A program made the translations under genes and the position numbers. A stretch of DNA of 35,216 bases from Pseudomonadota bacterium. GTDB taxonomy: Bacteria; Pseudomonadota; Gammaproteobacteria; Pseudomonadales; Pseudohongiellaceae. Positions 5,294 through 30,236 of this stretch are shown piece after piece. The notes beneath the pieces were generated by a model. The model saw only the letters and a list, made by a program, of their open reading frames with translations. It was not told where the DNA came from and did not search any database. Every line of letters begins with the position of its first letter. Position 1 is the stretch's first letter. Location of the stretch: assembly GCA_022566775.1 (NCBI GenBank), contig JADFIJ010000006.1:1-35216 (forward strand). Direction: 5' to 3'.

Positions 5294-6640
5294 ATGAAAA
5301 AGCATCTGTGGCTGCTAGTGCCAATCGCTGTAGTGTGTAGCGGAATTCAATCCTTCGCGGCAGAAAATGAGTCTCCCATCGCAGCGTTGGATAGACTGAT
5401 TACGGCGGGTCAATATGCGCAGGCGCTGGATCTGGGCGACGACAATCTGGAAGACTGGGAAGGCGATCCTGAATTCGATTTCCTGTATGGTCTTGCCGCG
5501 CTTGAATCAGGCAGTCCCAACGAGGCGGTCTTCGCGCTGGAACGTGTCGCAGCAACATCGACCGACGGCATATTGAGGGAACGCGCCCGCCTGGAACTCG
5601 CCAGGGCCTATTTTGTTACCAACAACCTGACCGCGGCAGAAAATCTTTTTAATCTCGTCCTGGCCAATAACCCGCCAGGGAATGTCCAGCAAAATGTCGA
5701 TGCTTTTTTAATTCTGATCGAAACCCGGCGCGCCTCGCAATCGTCTTCTTTCACTTGGGCCCTCTCTTCATTTGTCGGTTCAGACGACAACGTCAACAGC
5801 GCGACCAGCCTGGGCACAATCGACACGCCAATATTCGGCGATATCGAACTCGATCCCAATGGTCAACAGATCGACGACGTCTATTCCAACACACGGGGAG
5901 AAATGAATTACAAGTATGTTTTAACCAGGGATCGCTCCGTCGATTTCGGACTCGACCTGATTCATTTGAACAATTTTGATACCGACGCTTTCGACATTGA
6001 TAGTTTGCGCGCCAGCGCCACTTATAACTGGGGCGACAATATTAACCGGTTTTCCCATGGATTCGTTGCCACCAAGGTGCTGTTGGACCAGAATGGGTTT
6101 CAGGATTCCGTCGGGCTGAGCTCTGCTTGGCAGCACGCCAGCAGCAATGGTTGGTATCAGTCAGTCGCCGGATCCTACACTCAAATAAGGTATGACACCA
6201 GCGGCGGCCAGACCAACAGCGATTTGCGCGATGTCGACCAACTCTTGATAACCGCCGGATTGACAAAAATCTCTGGCGCTTTTACTCATTCTCTCAATCT
6301 ATATCGTGGTGATGAAGATGCAAGACATACTAATGGTGGCGAGCATAACGGAAGAGAATTCACCGGTCTTGCCTATAGCTTGCTGTACCGGTTAAACACA
6401 CAACATACTCCCTATCTCCGGGTTTCCTTGCAGGAAGTTGATCACGATGGTGAGCATCCCGTGTTCTCCGATACCACCCGCAATGATGATATCGAATCCG
6501 TAACGGCAGGCTGGTTTTATCAGTTCGATAGAAACTTACTGATAAGTGGCGAAGCGTCCTATACCAACGACGCCAGCAACATTTCCTTGTTTGATCATCA
6601 CAGATTCAAGTTTCAGGCAGGTTTTCGATATCGGTTCTAA
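5294..6640 (+). CDS. Surface lipoprotein assembly modifier (Slam/SlipAM, DUF560)-like TPR plus outer-membrane beta-barrel protein
   Basis: Signal peptide (MKKHLWLLVPIAVVCSGIQSFAA), N-terminal TPR-like helices ending NNPPGNVQQNVDAFLILIETRR, then a barrel beginning FTWALSSFVGSDDNVNSAT (compare the DSNVN.A motif of SlipAM). C-terminus ends in aromatic FRYRF, typical of outer-membrane barrels. Confidence 0.72.
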   Translation: MKKHLWLLVPIAVVCSGIQSFAAENESPIAALDRLITAGQYAQALDLGDDNLEDWEGDPEFDFLYGLAALESGSPNEAVFALERVAATSTDGILRERARLELARAYFVTNNLTAAENLFNLVLANNPPGNVQQNVDAFLILIETRRASQSSSFTWALSSFVGSDDNVNSATSLGTIDTPIFGDIELDPNGQQIDDVYSNTRGEMNYKYVLTRDRSVDFGLDLIHLNNFDTDAFDIDSLRASATYNWGDNINRFSHGFVATKVLLDQNGFQDSVGLSSAWQHASSNGWYQSVAGSYTQIRYDTSGGQTNSDLRDVDQLLITAGLTKISGAFTHSLNLYRGDEDARHTNGGEHNGREFTGLAYSLLYRLNTQHTPYLRVSLQEVDHDGEHPVFSDTTRNDDIESVTAGWFYQFDRNLLISGEASYTNDASNISLFDHHRFKFQAGFRYRF

Positions 6641-6678: not shown

Positions 6679-9600
6679 ATGAAGTCAAAATCTAAAATGT
6701 TCATCGATCGCCTTTGCTATAACTTTTTGCTGTTATGTATTGCAATCTACACGCCCGCAAATTTTGCCGCCGAAGAAGTCATAGCCGGGCGCGTCGTCGC
6801 AGTCAGCGGAACAGTGCGCGCCGTCGATGGCAGTGGCAGCGCCAGACAATTGAGTCGCCGATCTGAAATATTTGTTGGCGATACAATCGAGACCCAGCCT
6901 GCGTCGTTCGCCCAGATTCGCATGACTGACTCCGCGATCATCTCCTTGAAGGAATCCACTCGATTTGAAATTGTCGCTTACAGCTATGTGGAAAACCCAC
7001 AAACTGATATTTCAACAATGCGTCTCATCGAAGGCGGATTTAGAACCATCACCGGCAGGATCGGCCAGCAAAATATAGATGCTTACACTGTAGAGACTGA
7101 ATTTGCGACCATCGGCATTCGCGGTACCGACCATGAAGGGGTTATAACTGATGCCTTGTACACAGGCGTATATGACGGTGGTACAACGCTGTCTAATAAC
7201 GCAGATACGCTGGAACTGGGGCTGGGAGCAGATTATGACTTCGGTGTGGCCACCGATCCCAACACCCCGCCTCAAGGATTGGTATTACAGCCGGCCGAAT
7301 TAGGCAATATTCCTGTATTGAACGTAGCCGAACCGGAAGAGGAGGAAGACGACGACGGTGCTGGTGATGACAACGCAGATGATGGCGTGAACGACGCCGC
7401 AGATGGTGGCGCGAACGACGCTGCAGATGCTGGTGCTGGCGATGACGGTGGTGCTGCCGATCAGGCTGATGGTGGTGGTGGTGGAGATGACGGCGGTAAC
7501 GTACTAGCAGCAGATCTCGGCACCGGAGCCGCTGACGATGGCGCTCCCGCCCTCAGCCTGGTGGATACGGAAACAAGTTTGGGGGTCGATACATCTGGAA
7601 CTACTGCAGTAGCTGCGGAAACCAATGAAATTCAGGTTAACCCGAATGAGACCAGCGGTGACGGGCGTGTCGATTGCGCAGTCAATTCCTCGCTCGCGGC
7701 CTGTAAACCTGAAGATGATGATGAGACAGAGCCCGAGCCCGAGCCTGAACCTGAGCCCGAACCTGAACCTGAGCCCGAACCTGAACCTGAACCTGAACCT
7801 GAGCCCGAACCTGAGCCCGAACCTGAACCTGAACCTGAGCCCGAACCTGAACCTGAGCCGGAACCAGAACCAGAGCCCGTCACACCGGTGCTAAGCGATA
7901 TCGAAATTAATCAACTTCGGCGAGTAGGATTTGTCACCGTAAGCAGTGGCAGCAGCAAGGGGATCACCACTGGTTTGCTCGGCATTACCAACGTCAACCT
8001 GCTCGCGGTTTCGAGCACGGCCGACCCGCGCAACCAGGCCGGTGATGAGCCACTTTTTATTCTTGGTCGAGAATCTGCATCGCTCCAAAGCCTGCAGACC
8101 AGCGTCGCAGGGTTTTCAGTGGACTGGGCCGTCTGGGATGGCTCTGCGTCGACTCCGGTAACTAAATTTACCGACCCCGATGACGACTCCGCACGAGACT
8201 TACTCCCGAACCGAATGGTTGTGGTCGCCGTCCTCCCAACTGCGCTCGGTAACTTGCGCGGAAGTGCAACCTACAGTACCCATAAAACCGATGACGACAC
8301 ACCGCCCTTCATCGGCCTCACCGGCACCGCGATTACCAGTGGCATCAGTGGTGTGTGGGCAACGATTTCGGTGGATCTGGACACCGGCGCTTTGTCTGAC
8401 GGCTCCCTGCGGGTTTGTCTGGGTGGTACAGACAAATGCACCAGTCAAAGCGGTGGCGACTGGGAAGAAGAATGGCTAGGCAGTTTCGGCGGCACCGTGG
8501 TTGACGGCGTGCTGATACCCACGGCGATAACCGGGACCCGCCTCTTCGGCGATGCCGATACATCATCGATGAATGGCCTGGTTACTGGTGTCTTTACCGG
8601 TAGCGAGGCGGAAGCTTTTGCCCTGGGCTTTCAACTGCAGGATAGCGCCGATGCCGATAGCTCGATCAATGGGGCGACCTTGCTGGAGAAGAGCACGGTC
8701 ACAACGGTGGACAAGCTCGCGCTGGCGGAACAGGGGTTCTCCCTGTTGCCGGCGAGTGATCCTTTCGTGAAAATTACCAGCACGCAGCTAGCCAGTATTT
8801 CTGGCGTTTTCCGCCTCGATGTCAGTGGCGAAATCACTGCTTTCCAGGGCGTTCAACAATTCGCAGGCGTCGATGACAGCAGCATTTCTTCGATACAAAG
8901 ATTCGTCTTTGACATTAACTTCGATACCGGAAGCCTGAGCAATGGCGGCCTGGTGGTAGCAACGGCTAGCGGCGCTATCTGGGACACCCAGTTTTCCGGA
9001 TTCATTAATGGCGATTTGATCGACATGACTGTCACCGGCGGCACCATCACAGGAATAGACAGCACAACTATCGATCCGGCGAGTTCTGTCAGAGGTGATA
9101 TTGCTGGATTCTTTTTCGCCTCCACGGCCTTCGAGGATCCCACTCCCGATGCTGACAGACCGGAAATCATCGATGGCCTGGTGAGCGGCTTCAGTCTCCA
9201 CGATGAGAATTCCAGTTACACCCTCACGGGCAGTCTACTGGTTGGTGATTACACCCCGGAACCCGAACCCACACCAGAGCCCGAACCTACGCCAGCTCCC
9301 GCACTGGCGGCCGGCACTCATTCAGCATTCATCAGTTGGGGCCCCTGGGTAAATCCTGTCGCACAAAATTTCGTGGTAGTGGAAATTATCGATGCCGACA
9401 GGGCGACCATCAGCTCGGGGGATTTCCTGGCCGATGTTAACCCGGCTCCGGTTTCCAGCATGACAGGTACTTTGCACTCCTATGAGAATGGTGCCAGCGC
9501 CAGCTTTACCGGTAGTGGTAGTGCCGGCAGTATCTCCAGCGTACTCGCACACCTGCATGTTGATTTCGACTCCGGCGCGATTACCGAGGGTACACTGGAA

Positions 9601-9849
9601 GTGGGCGTCGCCAGTTTGCAAACCTGGTCAATTAATTTTAGCGGCTCCGTGAACGGCGGCGTCGCCAGGCTGAGTTCTAGCGGCGGATCGCTTTCGGAGC
9701 TGGGCGCGCTCGTCAGCTCTTCCATCGGCGCCAATCTCGTCGGATTGTTTACCGGTGACTCCGCAACCTGGTTTGTGGGAGGCTTCAACCTGATCGACAT
9801 ACTCGACGATTCTAATTCGGTTCAAGGCCTCTATGTTATCGAACGCTGA
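6679..9849 (+). CDS. FecR-domain secreted protein with Glu-Pro linker and three TbpB-like beta-barrel modules (putative Slam/T11SS cargo)
   Basis: Signal peptide; FecR-like domain ([15 protein letters not shown]...[32 protein letters not shown]...TIGIRGT); acidic Asp/Gly segment; (EP)25; three repeats of the form D.DTG.LS.G.L ... G.F.G..A...GF.L.D. It starts 38 nt after the 5294 gene on the same strand. Confidence 0.75.
7375..7446 (+). repeat. Degenerate 24-bp tandem repeat encoding (A)DDGVNDA / ADGGANDA / ADAGAGDD
   Basis: gcagatgatggcgtgaacgacgcc / gcagatggtggcgcgaacgacgct / gcagatgctggtgctggcgatgac read in tandem. Confidence 0.75.
7729..7878 (+). repeat. 6-bp-unit microsatellite (GARCCN) encoding 25 consecutive Glu-Pro dipeptides
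   Basis: 150 nt of gagccc/gaacct/gagcct units, in frame with the FecR protein. Confidence 0.95.
8365..8680 (+). repeat. Protein-level repeat module 1 (TbpB-like barrel half) within the FecR protein
   Basis: [20 protein letters not shown]...[21 protein letters not shown]...[21 protein letters not shown]. Confidence 0.6.
8905..9255 (+). repeat. Protein-level repeat module 2 within the FecR protein
   Basis: [48 protein letters not shown]...[14 protein letters not shown]...[11 protein letters not shown]. Confidence 0.6.
9550..9849 (+). repeat. Protein-level repeat module 3 (C-terminal) within the FecR protein
   Basis: [44 protein letters not shown]...[36 protein letters not shown]. Confidence 0.6.
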
Positions 9850-22157: not shown

Positions 22158-25115
22158 ATGACAGCAGCAAGCAGTTCACAAGCAGACAACAGTCCTGCTC
22201 CCCAGAATTTTCATCCCGCTTTCGAATGGAAACGCAGCCACAGAATTCCCTCGCTCCAGTTGGTAATGGAAGAGTACAGCCATCGGGTGACCGGTGCCGT
22301 GCATTATCATTTGAGCTGCGACCATCCCGAAAATGTATTTCTCGTGGCCTTCCGTACGGTGCCCATGGATTCCACCGGCGTCGCCCACATCCTGGAGCAT
22401 ACGGCCCTGTGTGGAAGTAAAAAGTACCCGGTGCGGGATCCGTTCTTCATGATGATCCGGCGCTCATTAAACACCTTCATGAATGCATTCACGAGCAGTG
22501 ACTGGACCGCGTACCCCTTCGCCAGCAAGAACAGAAAAGATTTCAACAATCTACTGAATGTTTATCTCGATGCCACTTTTTTCTCCCGGCTGCACAATCT
22601 GGATTTTGCGCAAGAGGGCCATCGCCTGGAATTTTCAGAACCTGAAAATCCTGAGAGTGAACTGCAGTATAAGGGTGTCGTATACAATGAGATGAAAGGC
22701 GCCATGAGCTCCACCAACAGCGTGCTATGGCAAGCCATGAGCAGGTATCTGTTCCCGACGTCGACATACCATTTCAATAGCGGTGGTGAGCCGGACGCGA
22801 TCCCGGATTTGACTTACCAGCAACTCGTCGATTTCTACAAGACCCACTACCATCCAAGCAATTCGGTGTTCATGACTTTTGGGGACATCCCTGCCTGTGA
22901 GCATCATCAGGCCTTCGAAGAGCTCGCACTTTCCAGCTTCGAAAAACTCGATATCAATATAGAAGTGAGTAATGAAAAAAGATACCTGTCACCTGTCAAG
23001 GTAGAGGAGTTTTATGCTGCCGAAAACGCTGCCAGCAGCAAGACCCATATTGTCATGGGTTGGCTGCTTGGCCACAGCACCAGCCTCGGCGATCTTTTCA
23101 GGGCGCAGCTGCTGAGCAGCGTGCTGCTGGACAACAGCGCCAGCCCCCTGATGAGAGCATTGGAAACCTCCAGCCTGGGTACATCGCCCTCCCCCTTGTG
23201 TGGCCTCGAAGACTCTAATCGCGAGATGAGTTTCATGGCCGGTCTCGAAGGCTGCGAAGCAACAGCGACCGCAGAAGTTGAGAGCCTGATTCGACACACC
23301 CTGCTGGAGATCTGCGAGACCGGCGTTGCCATCGACCAGGTTGAGGCCGCCCTGCATCAACTGGAACTCAACCAGCGGGAAATATCCGGCGACGGCTATC
23401 CTTATGGCCTCCAGCTTATCCTGGCCGGGCTCTCCACCGCCACCCACCGCGGTGATCCAATTCAACTACTCGACATTGACCCGGTGCTGGAAGAATTACG
23501 GGCACAGGTAAAAGACCAGAACTTCATTCCTGGTTTGATTCGGGAATTGTTATTGCACAACCGTCATCAGGTCACATTGACCCTGAAGCCGGATACCGAC
23601 TTGGCCAACAGGAAAGTGCAGTGTGAACAGCAGCAACTGGCCGTGATCAAAGCCGGGTTGTCGGAGCAGCAGCGGAATCAAATCCTTGCCGACTCCAGGG
23701 CACTGGCGCAACGACAGGCACAGGAGGATGACCCCGGCATCTTGCCCAAGGTCGGCCTGGAAGACGTGCCGGAGAAACTGACCGAACCCGAGCGGATCGA
23801 ATTCAGACCCAATAAATTGCCGGTGAGCTATTATGCCCAGGGCACCAACGGCTTGAGTTATCAGCAGGTAGTGATGCAGCTCCCCGAGCTGGAACCGGAT
23901 CTTCTCGACTTATTGCCCCTGTACACGACCTGTCTCACGGAATTCGGTGTCGGCGACAAGGACTACGCCGAGGTGCAGACCTGGCAGGCGCAGATTAGCG
24001 GCGGTGTGAATTGCTTCAGCAGTATCCATAGCGACCTGCAAGACGTGCAAAAAACCCATGCCTTGCTGACGTTTTCGTCAAAATCCCTGGTCCGCAACCA
24101 TGCTGCGCTGACCGAGCTGTTAAACACCACCATCGCGCAGGTGCGCTTCGACGAAGATCAGCGCCTGCGGGAATTAATCGAACAAATCTGCGCTCGCAAG
24201 GAGAGCAGCATCACCGCCCAGGGGCATGGGCTGGCAATGAGCCTCGCATCCAGCAGGATGAGCCCTGCCGCCCATCTAGGCTATTGTGCCGGCGGCCTTG
24301 CAGGCATCCAGAGGCTCAAGGTCCTGCGTGACAAGATGGCCGATGCCGATGAACGCAGCAAGGTATTGGAGCGCTTTGCGCAATTACATCGAGCCATCGT
24401 ACAGGCCGACACCCAATTTCTCCTCATTGCTGAAAAACAGCATCAGGACCAGGTGCTGGCGGAGTTGGCCGCTGTGTGGGAAGGACAGAGCAACGACAGT
24501 GCCAGCTCACATCTATCGCTGCCACCGATCCGGGAAGGCATTAAACAGGCCTGGACTACCTCTACCCAGGTTAATTTCTGCGCCAAGGCATACGCCACAG
24601 TTGCCTCCGGTCATGAAGACAATGCCACCCTCCACGTACTCGCTGGCTTCATGCGTAATGGCTTCCTGCACAGAGCGATTCGGGAACAGGGTGGCGCCTA
24701 TGGCGGAGGCGCCGGGCAAGACGCCAACTCTGCCTCTTTCCGATTTTTTTCCTATCGAGATCCTCGCCTCGTAGAGACTCTGGACGACTTCGATCGTGCC
24801 GTGGACTGGGTAATATCGGGGAGCCATTCTCCACGCCAGCTGGAAGAGGCCATACTGGGTGTTATCGCCGCCATGGACAAACCCGCATCGCCAGCCGGCG
24901 AGGCCAAACAGGCATTCTATAATCGCCTCTTCGGCAGAACACTCGCGCATCGGATGGATTTCCGGATGGCGGTTTTAGGTACCACCATCGCCGACCTCAA
25001 GGCCACAGCAGCCCGATATTTTGATCCATCCACCGCAAGTATTGGCGTAATAAGCAACCGAGAGACCATCGATGCAGCCAAGATGGATGAAATAGAAGTT
25101 ATAAATCTTCAATAA
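22158..25115 (+). CDS. M16C metallopeptidase (PreP/presequence-protease-like insulinase family)
   Basis: Inverted zinc motif HILEHTALCGSKKYPVRDPFFMMIRRSLNTFMNAFTSSDWTAYPFAS; 985 aa, PreP-like length and architecture. Confidence 0.93.
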   Translation: MTAASSSQADNSPAPQNFHPAFEWKRSHRIPSLQLVMEEYSHRVTGAVHYHLSCDHPENVFLVAFRTVPMDSTGVAHILEHTALCGSKKYPVRDPFFMMIRRSLNTFMNAFTSSDWTAYPFASKNRKDFNNLLNVYLDATFFSRLHNLDFAQEGHRLEFSEPENPESELQYKGVVYNEMKGAMSSTNSVLWQAMSRYLFPTSTYHFNSGGEPDAIPDLTYQQLVDFYKTHYHPSNSVFMTFGDIPACEHHQAFEELALSSFEKLDINIEVSNEKRYLSPVKVEEFYAAENAASSKTHIVMGWLLGHSTSLGDLFRAQLLSSVLLDNSASPLMRALETSSLGTSPSPLCGLEDSNREMSFMAGLEGCEATATAEVESLIRHTLLEICETGVAIDQVEAALHQLELNQREISGDGYPYGLQLILAGLSTATHRGDPIQLLDIDPVLEELRAQVKDQNFIPGLIRELLLHNRHQVTLTLKPDTDLANRKVQCEQQQLAVIKAGLSEQQRNQILADSRALAQRQAQEDDPGILPKVGLEDVPEKLTEPERIEFRPNKLPVSYYAQGTNGLSYQQVVMQLPELEPDLLDLLPLYTTCLTEFGVGDKDYAEVQTWQAQISGGVNCFSSIHSDLQDVQKTHALLTFSSKSLVRNHAALTELLNTTIAQVRFDEDQRLRELIEQICARKESSITAQGHGLAMSLASSRMSPAAHLGYCAGGLAGIQRLKVLRDKMADADERSKVLERFAQLHRAIVQADTQFLLIAEKQHQDQVLAELAAVWEGQSNDSASSHLSLPPIREGIKQAWTTSTQVNFCAKAYATVASGHEDNATLHVLAGFMRNGFLHRAIREQGGAYGGGAGQDANSASFRFFSYRDPRLVETLDDFDRAVDWVISGSHSPRQLEEAILGVIAAMDKPASPAGEAKQAFYNRLFGRTLAHRMDFRMAVLGTTIADLKATAARYFDPSTASIGVISNRETIDAAKMDEIEVINLQ

Positions 25116-25190: not shown

Positions 25191-25218
25191 GGAACTTTGG
25201 CCCTGCGCCACAGTCTGA
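25191..25218 (+). promoter_or_regulatory. Putative sigma-E (RpoE) promoter GGAACTT - 16 nt - TCTGA
   Basis: GGAACTTt at 25191-25197 and TCTGA at 25214-25218 with a 16-nt spacer, which matches the enterobacterial RpoE consensus. Confidence 0.6.
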
Positions 25219-25224
25219 GTATGT

Positions 25225-25320
25225 GTAGGTAGATGTTATTCAAAATTGTGGGTTTTGTTGCATTTATCTCTCCCTTGATAGTATATTCAGCCCAACAACC
25301 TTCGGTCGTTGGGCTTTTTT
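25225..25320 (+). ncRNA. Candidate sigma-E-dependent small RNA (about 95 nt)
   Basis: Short interval between an RpoE-type promoter and a strong intrinsic terminator. No annotated gene lies in between. The 5' end is estimated. Confidence 0.45.
25289..25320 (+). terminator. Rho-independent terminator
   Basis: AGCCCAACAACC-TTC-GGTCGTTGGGCT stem (12 positions, one A.C mismatch) followed by TTTTTT. Confidence 0.85.
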
Positions 25321-25520: not shown

Positions 25521-27293
25521 ATGAAACCAACCGATATCAACGACCCCAGCTACTTTCACAAGGTAGTGGATTGTCAGTGGGCATGTCCTGCCCATACGCC
25601 CGTGCCTGAATACATCAGGCTCATTGCGCAGAAGCGTTATACCGATGCCTACATGATCAATTGGTATTCCAATGTATTCCCAGGCATTCTCGGGCGCACC
25701 TGTGATCGCCCCTGTGAGCCAGCCTGCCGGCGTGGGCGCATCGACGAGCAGCCGGTTGCCATCTGCCGGCTAAAGCGGGTCGCAGCAGACTATAAATCCG
25801 ATATTTCGAAGTATCTGCCAAGCATTCCTAAAAAGAAGAACGGAAAACACATCGCCCTGATTGGCGCCGGCCCCGCCGCGCTAACGGTGGCGCGGGACCT
25901 GCTGCCGCTGGGTTACGAGATCACCCTGTTCGAAAAAGACGGGGTTGCCGGTGGTGCCATGCGCACTCAAATACCGCGGTTTCGCTTGCCCGTAGAAGTA
26001 CTGGAAGAAGAGCTTAACTACGTTATCGACCTCGGTATTAATTGCCGCTTCGGTGAAGAAATTACCAGTATGAGGGACTTGCTGGCAGAGGGATTCGACG
26101 CAATCTTCGTAGGCACCGGCGCTCCCCTCGGCAAACACCTGGACCTACCCGGCTTCGAAGAAGCCCGGGATAATATCCACACCGGGATCGAATGGTTGGC
26201 CAGTGTCGCCTTCGAACATGTCAGCTCCATCGGCAAGAAAGTACTGGTCTTAGGCGGAGGCAATACCGCCATGGATTGTTGTCGCACGGCCAGGCGCCTG
26301 GGTGGCGATGAGGTAACGGTCGTGGTTCGCAGCGGCTTCGACGAAATGAAGGCCTCGGCCTGGGAAATTGAAGACGCCATGAACGAGGACATCCCCATCC
26401 TCAATTTTCACGCCCCCAAACGCTATATCTGTGAAGACGGCAAACTCGTCGCCATGGAATTCGAAAAAGTGCGCAAGGAAACTGACAAGAATGGGAGACG
26501 TTTGTTAATTCCCACCGGGGAAGATCCCGTAATCCTGCCCTGTGATGACGTCTTGTGCGCGATCGGTCAGGAGAACAGCGTGCCCTGGATCGAGCGTGAC
26601 CTCGGCATCGAGTTCGATCAATGGGAGCTTCCCATCCTCAACAAGCTTACCTTCCAGACCACTCATGAAAGAGTCTTCTTCGGCGGCGACGCAGCCTTCG
26701 GTCCGGACAATATCATTTCCGCCGTGGCCCATGGACATGACGTCGCCGTGTCGATCCACCTGATATGCACTGAGCAAGACATAAACGACCGACCCGACCC
26801 CATCACCTCGCTCGCCAGTCAGAAAATGGGTATACATCAATGGTCATACGATAACGACATAAGCAACGATGTTCGCTATATCGTACCCCACGCCGAGAAG
26901 ACCAAGACCCTTCACGACGTCAACATGGAAGTTGAACTGGGCTTCGATGAAGCGCTGGCCCTGAAGGAAACCCAGCGCTGTCTGAACTGCGATGTACAGA
27001 CCGTGTTCACCGATCAGCTCTGCATCGAGTGTGATGCCTGCGTAGATGTTTGCCCAACCGATTGCATCACCTTCACCGCCAACGGTGAAGAAAGTGACTT
27101 GCGGTCCTCACTGATGGCACCGGCGGAAAACCCCGACCAGGACATCTATGTGTCAGGCCTCCTGAAGACCGGAAGAGTCATGGCCAAGAACGAAGATCTG
27201 TGCCTGCACTGCGGCCTCTGTGCGGAGCGCTGCCCGACCAATGCCTGGGATATGCGCAAGTATCTGTTTGATACTGCCAAGGCGAGTGCCTGA
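25521..27293 (+). CDS. GltD-like FAD/NAD(P)-dependent oxidoreductase with C-terminal 2x[4Fe-4S] ferredoxin domain
   Basis: CQWACPAHTPVPEYIRLIAQKRYTDAY...GILGRTCDRPCEPACRRGRID; IGAGPAALTVARDL and VLGGGNTAMDCCRTA dinucleotide folds; CIECDACVDVCPTDC and CLHCGLCAERCPTNAW clusters. Confidence 0.9.
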   Translation: MKPTDINDPSYFHKVVDCQWACPAHTPVPEYIRLIAQKRYTDAYMINWYSNVFPGILGRTCDRPCEPACRRGRIDEQPVAICRLKRVAADYKSDISKYLPSIPKKKNGKHIALIGAGPAALTVARDLLPLGYEITLFEKDGVAGGAMRTQIPRFRLPVEVLEEELNYVIDLGINCRFGEEITSMRDLLAEGFDAIFVGTGAPLGKHLDLPGFEEARDNIHTGIEWLASVAFEHVSSIGKKVLVLGGGNTAMDCCRTARRLGGDEVTVVVRSGFDEMKASAWEIEDAMNEDIPILNFHAPKRYICEDGKLVAMEFEKVRKETDKNGRRLLIPTGEDPVILPCDDVLCAIGQENSVPWIERDLGIEFDQWELPILNKLTFQTTHERVFFGGDAAFGPDNIISAVAHGHDVAVSIHLICTEQDINDRPDPITSLASQKMGIHQWSYDNDISNDVRYIVPHAEKTKTLHDVNMEVELGFDEALALKETQRCLNCDVQTVFTDQLCIECDACVDVCPTDCITFTANGEESDLRSSLMAPAENPDQDIYVSGLLKTGRVMAKNEDLCLHCGLCAERCPTNAWDMRKYLFDTAKASA

Positions 27294-29149
27294 TGCCTGA
27301 ACTGATTAAATCCAGCAAGGTGAAAACCATCACCAGGGTCAACGATTTTATCATTAAGTTTGCCAATGTGAACGGCTCCGGTTCTGCCAGCGCCAACAAG
27401 TTGTTTGCCAAATCCGTGTTCCGCATGGGCATTCCGGTGAGCCCGAATAATATTTTCCCGTCGAATATTCAAGGTCTGCCCACCTGGTATGAAGTCCGCA
27501 TTAGCGACGCCGGTTACCTGGGGCGTCGCCAAGGTATTGACTTTATGGTGGTCATGAATGAGCAGACCGTCAACAGCGATATCGCGTCGGTGGTGCCCGG
27601 TGGTTATGTGCTATATGACTCATCCAAGGCGCTGAGCGCCGAACTGATTCGAGATGATGTGCAATACCTGGGCATCCCACTAAAAGATATTTGTCTGCGG
27701 GAGTTTGACAATCCTGCCCAGCGCCAGCTGTTCAAAAACATTGTCTATGTAGGCGCGCTGTCTGCTTTTCTCAATATTGACTTCAGAATACTGACCTCCA
27801 TGGTAGGCGAGCAGTTCCGTGGCAAGGAAAAGCTCATTCTACCTAACATTCATGCTCTGGAACTCGGTCACCAATACGCGAAGGAGAACTTTTCCTGCCC
27901 CCTGGGCTTGCGACTAAAAACCAGCAACAAGACCAAGAATAAAATACTGATCGATGGCAACACGGCGATTGGATTAGGTTGCGTCTATGGCGGCGCCACT
28001 ATCGGCGCATGGTATCCATTGACACCTTCTACTTCCGTGGTAGATAGTTTTGGCAAATACTGCAAGCGCCTCAGAATCGACCCAGGCACGGGCAAGAAAA
28101 AATATACCATTGTTCAAGCCGAAGATGAACTGGCGGCGATCGGTATTGCCATCGGTGCCGGTTGGATGGGAGCCAGAGCGTTCACCGCCACCAGCGGACC
28201 CGGTCTCTCCCTGATGCAGGAATTTTTGGGCCTGGCTTATTTTGCCGAAGTGCCGCTGGTCTTATTTGACATTCAAAGAGTCGGGCCATCCACGGGCATG
28301 CCTACGCGCACTCAGCAGGGCGATCTGTTGGCCTGCGCTTATGCTTCCCACGGGGACACCAAGCATGTGCTCCTCTTCCCCTCGTCGCCAACCGAATGTT
28401 TCGAATTCGCAGCCCGGGCTTTTGATATCGCCGACCGCCTGCAATCGCCGGTGATAGTGATGAGCGATCTCGAACTGGGCATGAATGAACAAATATGTGA
28501 CCCGCTGAACTGGGATGACAAGCATGAGTACGACCGCGGCAAGGTACTGAACGCCTCGCAATTGGAAGAGATAGAAAAATTCGGTCGCTACCTGGATGTG
28601 GATGGCGACGGTATCACCTATCGCACCTATCCAGGAACACACCCGGACCTGGGCAGCTATTTTACTCGCGGTAGCTCACACAATCCCTACGCCGCCTACA
28701 CCGAAGACGGCGATGTCTATGCCGACATGATGGACCGGCTGGCGCTAAAATTAAAAACCGCGCTCAAGTATATTCCGGAACCTGAAGTTTCCGGCGGCGG
28801 CAAAAACAAACTGGGACTGATGTATTTCGGCAGCACCAGCATGGCCATCCAGGAAGTCCGGGACAGCCTTAACAAGAAAGGCATCAAATTCGACACCCTG
28901 CGGGTCAGGTCATTCCCGTTTCATCCTGCTGTCGGTGAGTTTCTGGAGTGCCACGAGCTGACCTATGTGATCGAGCAAAACCGGGATGCGCAGCTAAAGA
29001 GCCTGTTGAAGATCGAATGCAATGCCAACAATGACAAGATGCAATCCATTCTCAGCTACAATGGCGTGCTGGTGAGTGCACAACGTATTGAGCGGGATAT
29101 ACTGAACTCGATGCAGAGCCTGGAAAACTCCGGGGAGATCCCCGCCTAG
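27293..29149 (+). CDS. 2-oxoacid:acceptor (ferredoxin) oxidoreductase, fused gamma/alpha subunit (KorA-like)
   Basis: N-terminal gamma-like domain (NGSGSASANKLFAKSVFRMGIPVSPNNIFPSNIQGLPTWYEVRIS) and alpha domain (GGATIGAWYPLTPSTSVVD, QAEDELAAIGIAIGAGWMGARAFTATSGPGLSLMQEFLGLA). Start overlaps the upstream stop by one nt (TGATG). Confidence 0.9.
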   Translation: MPELIKSSKVKTITRVNDFIIKFANVNGSGSASANKLFAKSVFRMGIPVSPNNIFPSNIQGLPTWYEVRISDAGYLGRRQGIDFMVVMNEQTVNSDIASVVPGGYVLYDSSKALSAELIRDDVQYLGIPLKDICLREFDNPAQRQLFKNIVYVGALSAFLNIDFRILTSMVGEQFRGKEKLILPNIHALELGHQYAKENFSCPLGLRLKTSNKTKNKILIDGNTAIGLGCVYGGATIGAWYPLTPSTSVVDSFGKYCKRLRIDPGTGKKKYTIVQAEDELAAIGIAIGAGWMGARAFTATSGPGLSLMQEFLGLAYFAEVPLVLFDIQRVGPSTGMPTRTQQGDLLACAYASHGDTKHVLLFPSSPTECFEFAARAFDIADRLQSPVIVMSDLELGMNEQICDPLNWDDKHEYDRGKVLNASQLEEIEKFGRYLDVDGDGITYRTYPGTHPDLGSYFTRGSSHNPYAAYTEDGDVYADMMDRLALKLKTALKYIPEPEVSGGGKNKLGLMYFGSTSMAIQEVRDSLNKKGIKFDTLRVRSFPFHPAVGEFLECHELTYVIEQNRDAQLKSLLKIECNANNDKMQSILSYNGVLVSAQRIERDILNSMQSLENSGEIPA

Positions 29150-29180
29150 ACAGCTGGCAGGGCAAGGGTAAAACAAGACC

Positions 29181-30236
29181 ATGAGCTATATCGGTAAACC
29201 GAAATTTCAACATCCGCAATTAGAGACCAACGAGCTGGGTCTGACTCGCAGAGACTACGAGGGTGCCTTCACCACATTGTGTGCCGGCTGCGGTCATGAT
29301 TCGATTAGCGCCGCGATCATCCAGGCCACCGCCGAGATGTCCCTGCCGCCTCATCGCGTGGCAAAAATTTCAGGCATAGGCTGTTCCTCAAAGATTCCCG
29401 CCTATTTCCTGAGCAAGTCCCATAGCTTCAACTCTGTTCATGGTCGCATGCCATCGGTGGCGACTGGCGCCAACCTGGCCAACAAGGAACTGCATTACCT
29501 CGGCATATCTGGCGACGGTGATAGCGCTTCAATCGGCCTCGGCCAGTTCTGTCATATCGTCAGACGGCGCATCAACATGCTCTATATCATCGCTAACAAT
29601 GGCACCTACGGTCTTACCAAGGGGCAGCTTTCCGCCACCGCCGACCTCGGCTCCAAAACCAAATTCGGTGAGGAAAGTCTCTTCGATAACATCGACATGG
29701 CAACCCTTGCGATCGAGTTGGGCGCCAGCTTCGTCGCCCGTAGTTTTTCTGGTGATAAGAAACAGTTGATTCCCCTGATCCAGGCCGGCCTGACCCATAA
29801 GGGCTTTGCCTTCATCGACATCGTTTCCCCCTGCGTAACATTTAACAACACCGATGCATCCGCCCAGGGCTATAAAAACACCTGGGAAAACTATGTTGCC
29901 TTGAGCGAAATTGATTTCGTGCCCATGCGCGAAGAGATCACCACCAGTTATGACGCTGGCAAGGAAAAGGAAATTACCTTGCACGATGGCTCGGTGATTC
30001 GCCTGCACAAGACCGGCATGAATTATGATCCCTACGACAAGGAAAATGCGCTGCATCATATCAACCAGTACAAGAAGCAGGGCAAGATCGCCACCGGGCT
30101 GTTGTATATCAACCAATCCACTTCCGATTATCATGAATTACAGGATACGGTGGACAAACCTTTCAACACCCTCACCCAGCATGACCTCTGTCCCGGCAGC
30201 GAAGTACTGGCAGATATCAACAATACCTTTCGTTAG
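29181..30236 (+). CDS. 2-oxoacid:ferredoxin oxidoreductase beta subunit (KorB-like, TPP-binding)
   Basis: LCAGCGHDSISAAIIQA, GIGCSSKIPAYF, VHGRMPSVATGANLAN, GDGDSASIGLGQFCHIVRRRINMLYIIANNGTYGLTKGQ. Confidence 0.92.
   Translation: MSYIGKPKFQHPQLETNELGLTRRDYEGAFTTLCAGCGHDSISAAIIQATAEMSLPPHRVAKISGIGCSSKIPAYFLSKSHSFNSVHGRMPSVATGANLANKELHYLGISGDGDSASIGLGQFCHIVRRRINMLYIIANNGTYGLTKGQLSATADLGSKTKFGEESLFDNIDMATLAIELGASFVARSFSGDKKQLIPLIQAGLTHKGFAFIDIVSPCVTFNNTDASAQGYKNTWENYVALSEIDFVPMREEITTSYDAGKEKEITLHDGSVIRLHKTGMNYDPYDKENALHHINQYKKQGKIATGLLYINQSTSDYHELQDTVDKPFNTLTQHDLCPGSEVLADINNTFR

Follow-up and report, generated by a model that had tools for sequence, protein, structure and literature searches.

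A conserved small RNA gene with a sigma-E-type promoter in Pseudohongiellaceae and its predicted pairing with TonB-receptor mRNAs

Results and Discussion

The window, i.e., the whole 35,216-nt stretch of contig JADFIJ010000006.1 (assembly GCA_022566775.1, Pseudohongiellaceae) that was analysed, almost certainly contains a genuine small RNA (sRNA) gene with a sigma-E promoter, as judged from comparative sequence evidence. The gene is located at 25223..25320 on the plus strand, spans approximately 98 nt, and matches the covariance model at 108 bits; its start was inferred 5 nt past the -10 element, and its end was set at the U-tract. Taken as a whole, we consider it quite probable that this RNA represents a sigma-E-dependent, receptor-repressing family of trans-acting sRNAs of the Pseudohongiellaceae. 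According to the proposed mechanism, envelope stress would free RpoE (sigma-E) from RseA, and RpoE would then transcribe the ~98-nt trans-acting RNA from a promoter of its own, located 3' of preP. Folding of the RNA would yield a stem-loop at the 5' end and a terminator hairpin and would leave the stretch CUCUCCCUUGAUAGUA exposed. In the mRNAs of TonB-dependent receptors this stretch, probably together with Hfq, would pair with the Shine-Dalgarno (SD) region and with the 10-15 nt that precede it. Such pairing would block ribosome binding, and fewer barrel proteins would consequently burden the outer membrane.

Genomic context of the sRNA gene

The promoter and the terminator both lie within the intergenic gap that separates an M16C/PreP-type peptidase gene (22158..25115, plus strand; Pfam M16C_assoc, PreP_C) from the OFOR operon encoding the NAD(P)/FeS subunit, POR alpha, and POR beta (25521..30236, plus strand), both flanks being given here as context only. 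The sequence-only reading had placed an RpoE-type promoter in this gap, and its elements were found exactly as claimed, with GGAACTT at 25191-25197, a spacer of 16 nt, and TCTGA at 25214-25218. The terminator hairpin and T-run that it had described about 70 nt past the -10 element were located at 25289-25320, 71 nt beyond, and consist of AGCCCAACAACC-TTC-GGTCGTTGGGCT followed by the T-run. Its proposal of an sRNA with an RpoE-type promoter and an intrinsic terminator gained support from conservation, from a matching rpoE-rseA promoter, and from the presence of RpoE and Hfq, all detailed below. The M16C/PreP-type gene is a constant neighbour, preceding the sRNA gene in the same orientation at 82 of the 92 loci; the first OFOR gene is a variable one, detected downstream in 41/92 at a distance of ~0.1-1.6 kb. 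Elsewhere in the window, a gene at 6679-9849 encodes a FecR-domain protein of 1056 aa, whose low-complexity repeat is weakly matched by the Trypan_PARP model, and adjoins the TPR/beta-barrel gene at 5294. In a genome of genus g24, a gene for a TonB receptor of ~1040 aa (G220:C1:62731-64254) follows the sRNA gene in the same orientation, ~1 kb further 3'.

Promoter architecture and association with RpoE

The sRNA locus displays the sigma-E promoter form (GGAACTT, ~16 nt, TCnnA). Within the -35 element GGAACTT (25191..25197, plus strand), GGAAC(T) was near-invariant among 91 distinct copies, and the -10 element GTCTGA (GTCnnA; 25213..25218, plus strand) occupies a fixed position, its GTC lying exactly 16 nt past GGAACT in 116 of 119 copies when redundant copies are counted. 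Information content per position, calculated for the 91 distinct copies, amounted to 1.97 bits for the -35 element, 2.0 for GTC, and 2.0 for the final A, compared with 0.24 for the 15-base spacer. When the window's genome alone was searched with the pattern GGAACTTN{15,16}GTCNNA, 2 matches in 3.4 Mb were obtained versus 5 for the reversed control, which is not above chance; since the promoter match is thus uninformative in one genome, the comparative evidence is decisive.

The window's genome encodes RpoE (TIGR02939, 299 bits vs. a cut-off of 236) as well as Hfq, the hfq gene being present in 11/11 genomes. Upstream of rpoE-rseA, a promoter of the form NGAACTTTTG-N-GTC with near-identical spacing was found in all eight genomes with a located rpoE start (expected sites, ~0.003 per 330 nt), the RseA-like gene following rpoE having been assigned by eye; the corresponding site in the window's own genome is AGAACTTTTGCACCCAATCAGTGTCTAT. 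Furthermore, GGAACTTAACCTAT..GGTCnnA precedes a gene encoding a signal-peptide-bearing cyclophilin-type PPIase (PF00160, ~315 aa) in three genomes (L341, L329, and L325 in G012, G029, and G025, respectively). This periplasmic PPIase is a typical envelope-folding factor, and its gene is probably a further member of the RpoE regulon, to judge from its upstream motif. The occurrence of the same motif before rpoE-rseA and the PPIase gene ties it to RpoE in this lineage, short of proof, and we infer that the sRNA promoter would depend on the same factor.

Conservation and distribution

A 231-bp stretch containing the locus was present in 31 of 36 genomes of the same genus (G001-G036) and in none of the genomes from 22 other genera of the order. 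The sequence-only reading had called for promoter and terminator to be conserved in relatives, and this was confirmed, the -35 and -10 elements being near-invariant among the 91 distinct copies and the terminator covarying among 48 diverse ones. An exact 19-mer core, TTTATCTCTCCCTTGATAG, occurred in 92 species/genome records named Pseudohongiella, OM182, or uncultured Pseudomonadales/Gammaproteobacteria, including a few evidently mislabelled MAGs, and a copy is present in the cultured species Pseudohongiella nitratireducens SCS-49. With the covariance model, 77 of the 99 genomes searched within the family and 7/8 genera scored positive, a few of them weakly. Outside the family, the order-wide covariance search returned matches of 26-37 bits only; those inspected (28-37 bits) mostly lacked the conserved core, looked like chance terminators, and were rejected.

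In diverged genera where the model gives weak hits or none, three loci (L200, L201, and L206) carry a GGAACTTTT-type promoter and a terminator-ended RNA of ~100 nt at the corresponding position after preP. In another genome (G465, locus L203), the promoter is degenerate (GAAACTTTTT) and the hairpin entirely different, with the seed CTCTCTCCCTTGA retained.

RNA secondary structure

The RNA of the window folds at -28.3 kcal/mol (z -4.3), with a stem-loop at the 5' end, then an unpaired stretch, and finally a terminator. The 5' stem-loop (25227..25269, plus strand) is formed by pairing of 25227-25236 with 25260-25269 and encloses an inner hairpin at 25241-25257; it is followed by the mostly unpaired seed CUCUCCCUUGAUAGUA (25268..25283, plus strand), whose columns are invariant and which shows predicted complementarity to SD regions of target mRNAs, and by the intrinsic terminator hairpin with its U-tract (25289..25320, plus strand). 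In an alignment of 48 diverse copies, pairing was kept in 92.5% of cells and both partners had changed in 12 pairs; neither shuffles nor slides equalled this pairing and covariation support. Most of the covariation is supplied by the terminator, where helix 3 is paired in 95.8% of cells and 8 of its 11 pairs have changed on both sides. Helices 1 and 2, which make up the 5' stem-loop, are paired in 90% and 92% of cells, respectively, with two both-side-changed pairs each. In other clades the inner hairpin has been swapped (CCGG-UUCG-CCGG, CAGAGCU-aa-AGCUCUG), with the seed kept. The first 20-30 nt, which the sequence-only reading had put forward for target prediction, are tied up in a stem and are probably not the functional region; an internal anti-SD stretch appears to take that role instead.

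Within 25263-25281, UUUAUC has two potential partners, the 5' AGGUAGAU and a GAUAG immediately 3' of it. The latter pairing could present UCUCCCUU in a loop, so that a switch of seed exposure is possible in this model. The UUAUC/GAUAG hairpin proposed by RNAalifold around UCUCCCUU showed no covariation and was kept only as a possible alternative fold.

These data also bear on two other interpretations of the locus, each of which we consider highly improbable. The element could merely be the 3' UTR and terminator of preP with an incidental promoter-like sequence, as its almost constant position after preP on the same strand (82/92 loci) might suggest, but ~90 species have conserved the promoter elements at fixed spacing, with random sequence between them, and these elements recur in the diverged copies of other genera (L206, L200, L201). 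Read on the minus strand, the SD sequence GGGAGAG and an ATG would start a small leader peptide (MKQNPQF...) with the hairpin as its 5' UTR, and GGGAGAGATAAATG followed by MKQNPQF is indeed found in 54 of 89 copies. However, the length of this frame varies among species from 6 to 22 codons, with 7 in the window, or the frame runs on without a stop, and the ATG is absent in some copies (e.g., L042, L113, and L203). Moreover, promoter and T-tract alike indicate the plus strand, and where the hairpin varies between clades, it is pairing rather than coding that is preserved.

Predicted targets

The conserved stretch CUCUCCCUUGAUAGUA is complementary to SD regions, and the sRNA likely represses the synthesis of TonB-dependent receptors through this internal anti-SD seed, as suggested by enriched complementarity in their leaders. 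The target hypothesis was set by an exact-SD search in which two TonB-dependent receptors, recognised by their N-termini, appeared among a dozen genes; the genomes encode 16 to 53 TonB receptors each. For a discovery set, receptor leaders were drawn from three genomes, 38 of them with an N-terminus clearly of the receptor type. Their pairing with AUCUCUCCCUUGAUAGUA reached a median of -11.3 kcal/mol, compared with -7.4 kcal/mol for 1125 genes from a related genome (p = 2e-9; p = 2e-8 with starts chosen blind to the SD), and none of 200 shuffled seeds performed as well. The 5' end and the hairpin loop of the same RNA gave no enrichment on receptor leaders. A replicate set from three other genomes yielded p = 0.005, again with 0/200 shuffled seeds as good, and enrichment was weaker for the receptor leaders of genus g24 (5/200 shuffles as good). 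These p-values are optimistic, given that a heuristic was used to call gene starts and that paralogous receptors are related rather than independent; the tests were run on genome stretches.

Pairing also extends beyond the anti-SD part. The hexamer CTATCA, chosen from the discovery set, held in the replicate set, where it occurred in 4 of 18 leaders vs. 6 of 1125 genes (p = 9e-6). A combined motif phrased after both sets had been seen, CTATCA/ATCAAG/TATCAA followed by a purine SD within 14 nt, was present in 7/50 receptor leaders of the genus vs. 0/1125 genes. Among receptors starting with MRK-F/I-P, pairing of -13.5 to -21.5 kcal/mol was kept in five leaders despite changed leader letters, and in the window's genome TACTATCAAG-uaaa-GGGGAGA lies upstream of a receptor start (-22 kcal/mol).

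Part of the receptor enrichment stems from purine-rich SD sequences, as the leaders of sRNA-less genomes lean the same way (z = -1.8; 11/200 shuffles as good). Directly compared with 13 such leaders, the discovery set gave p = 0.06 and the replicate set p = 0.41. The RNA might accordingly be a sigma-E-dependent sRNA whose main targets are not TonB receptors, e.g., other envelope, cytochrome, or metabolic mRNAs, with the enrichment mostly reflecting purine-rich SD sequences. Besides the leaning of the sRNA-less leaders, this reading is favoured by the better pairing of the 16S anti-SD sequence itself with receptor leaders (p = 8e-5) and by the SD of a gene in the window's genome for an exported cytochrome-like protein, which reads AAGGGAGAG. 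The seed enrichment is nevertheless far stronger than that of the 16S anti-SD sequence, includes CTATCA outside the SD, and is not reproduced by shuffled seeds, so we regard non-receptor main targets as unlikely and retain repression of TonB receptors as the preferred reading.

No gene recurred across the genus in a screen for exact AAGGGAGAG plus ATG, exported proteins as a class showed no pairing enrichment, and leaders of the OmpA family (OmpA-domain proteins) were unremarkable, with nothing clear. The suggestion that the RNA acts on outer-membrane protein mRNAs is supported in kind, through the enriched TonB-receptor leaders, but not for the outer-membrane protein gene at 5294 that had been named as a candidate, for which seed pairing was -5.5 kcal/mol; no convincing target was found among the window's own genes.

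Comparison with known regulatory RNAs

At curated thresholds, no Rfam family reached its cut-off in the window, so the RNA is not RybB, VrrA, or ErsA; it is a previously uncatalogued RNA family of a known functional kind, and no earlier description was found in the largely open-access literature searched. The sub-threshold scores given here come from a relaxed scan of the locus. The enterobacterial sigma-E sRNAs RybB and MicA share with it an RpoE-type promoter, a length of ~80-100 nt, an intrinsic terminator, and, as predicted here, probably Hfq-assisted repression of outer-membrane protein synthesis. The likeness to RybB noted in the sequence-only reading is nonetheless limited to a generic terminator hairpin (RF00110, 15.5 bits vs. 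a cut-off of 40), and no MicA match was listed. The seed of RybB lies at its 5' end, whereas the seed inferred here is internal and anti-SD, and the predicted targets are TonB receptors. VrrA of Vibrio (RF01456; 16.5 bits vs. 50) differs in length and sequence. ErsA/Pseudomon-1 (RF01719) scored 13.7 bits vs. 50; ErsA is an sRNA of the same order, Pseudomonadales, under the control of AlgU (sigma-22), a sigma-E homologue (PMC5819304). The best sub-threshold match, below its cut-off as well, was Betaproteobacteria_toxic_sRNA (RF02278; 24.4 bits, E 0.004, vs. 50), which resembles the present sRNA in having a UCUCC stretch before a GCCC terminator. Regarding mechanism, LhrC of Listeria is induced by envelope stress and binds SD sequences through an exposed UCCC (PMC4132741). 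LhrC and other sRNAs with UCCC motifs (RsaE, FsrA) are Firmicute RNAs and offer an analogy of mechanism only; LhrC depends on the LisRK two-component system, in contrast to the sigma-E-type promoter found here.

The RNA would extend the control that sigma-E sRNAs exert on the outer membrane to a marine family of wide distribution, for which RNA regulators do not appear to have been described. It suggests that different lineages have evolved sigma-E sRNAs independently and that these converge on the dominant outer-membrane proteins, here TonB receptors and not classical porins.

Paralogous RNAs and clade-specific variants

Paralogous RNAs scoring 47-63 bits were observed in three genomes (L180, G485:C35:5016-5116; L181, G468:C2:13831-13933; L182, G029:C6:179208-179308). 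Their seed is altered (CUCUCCUCUGAAG, CUCUCUCCUCCGAG, and similar), GGAACTT is absent, and caattgtataa-like motifs are common to their upstream regions, so that these copies may obey another regulator. A more specific scenario, which we advance tentatively and consider somewhat doubtful, is that of an envelope-stress RNA confined to this lineage and devoted to TonB-dependent receptors, with a bipartite internal seed (anti-SD plus UUGAUAGUA) pairing around the ribosome site and with paralogues lacking the sigma-E promoter in some genomes. If true, sibling RNAs could feed different stresses onto overlapping receptor sets. As a separate structural variant, four copies of the OM182-type clade (L019, L020, L080, and L091) have a longer tail and an extra hairpin between the seed and the terminator.
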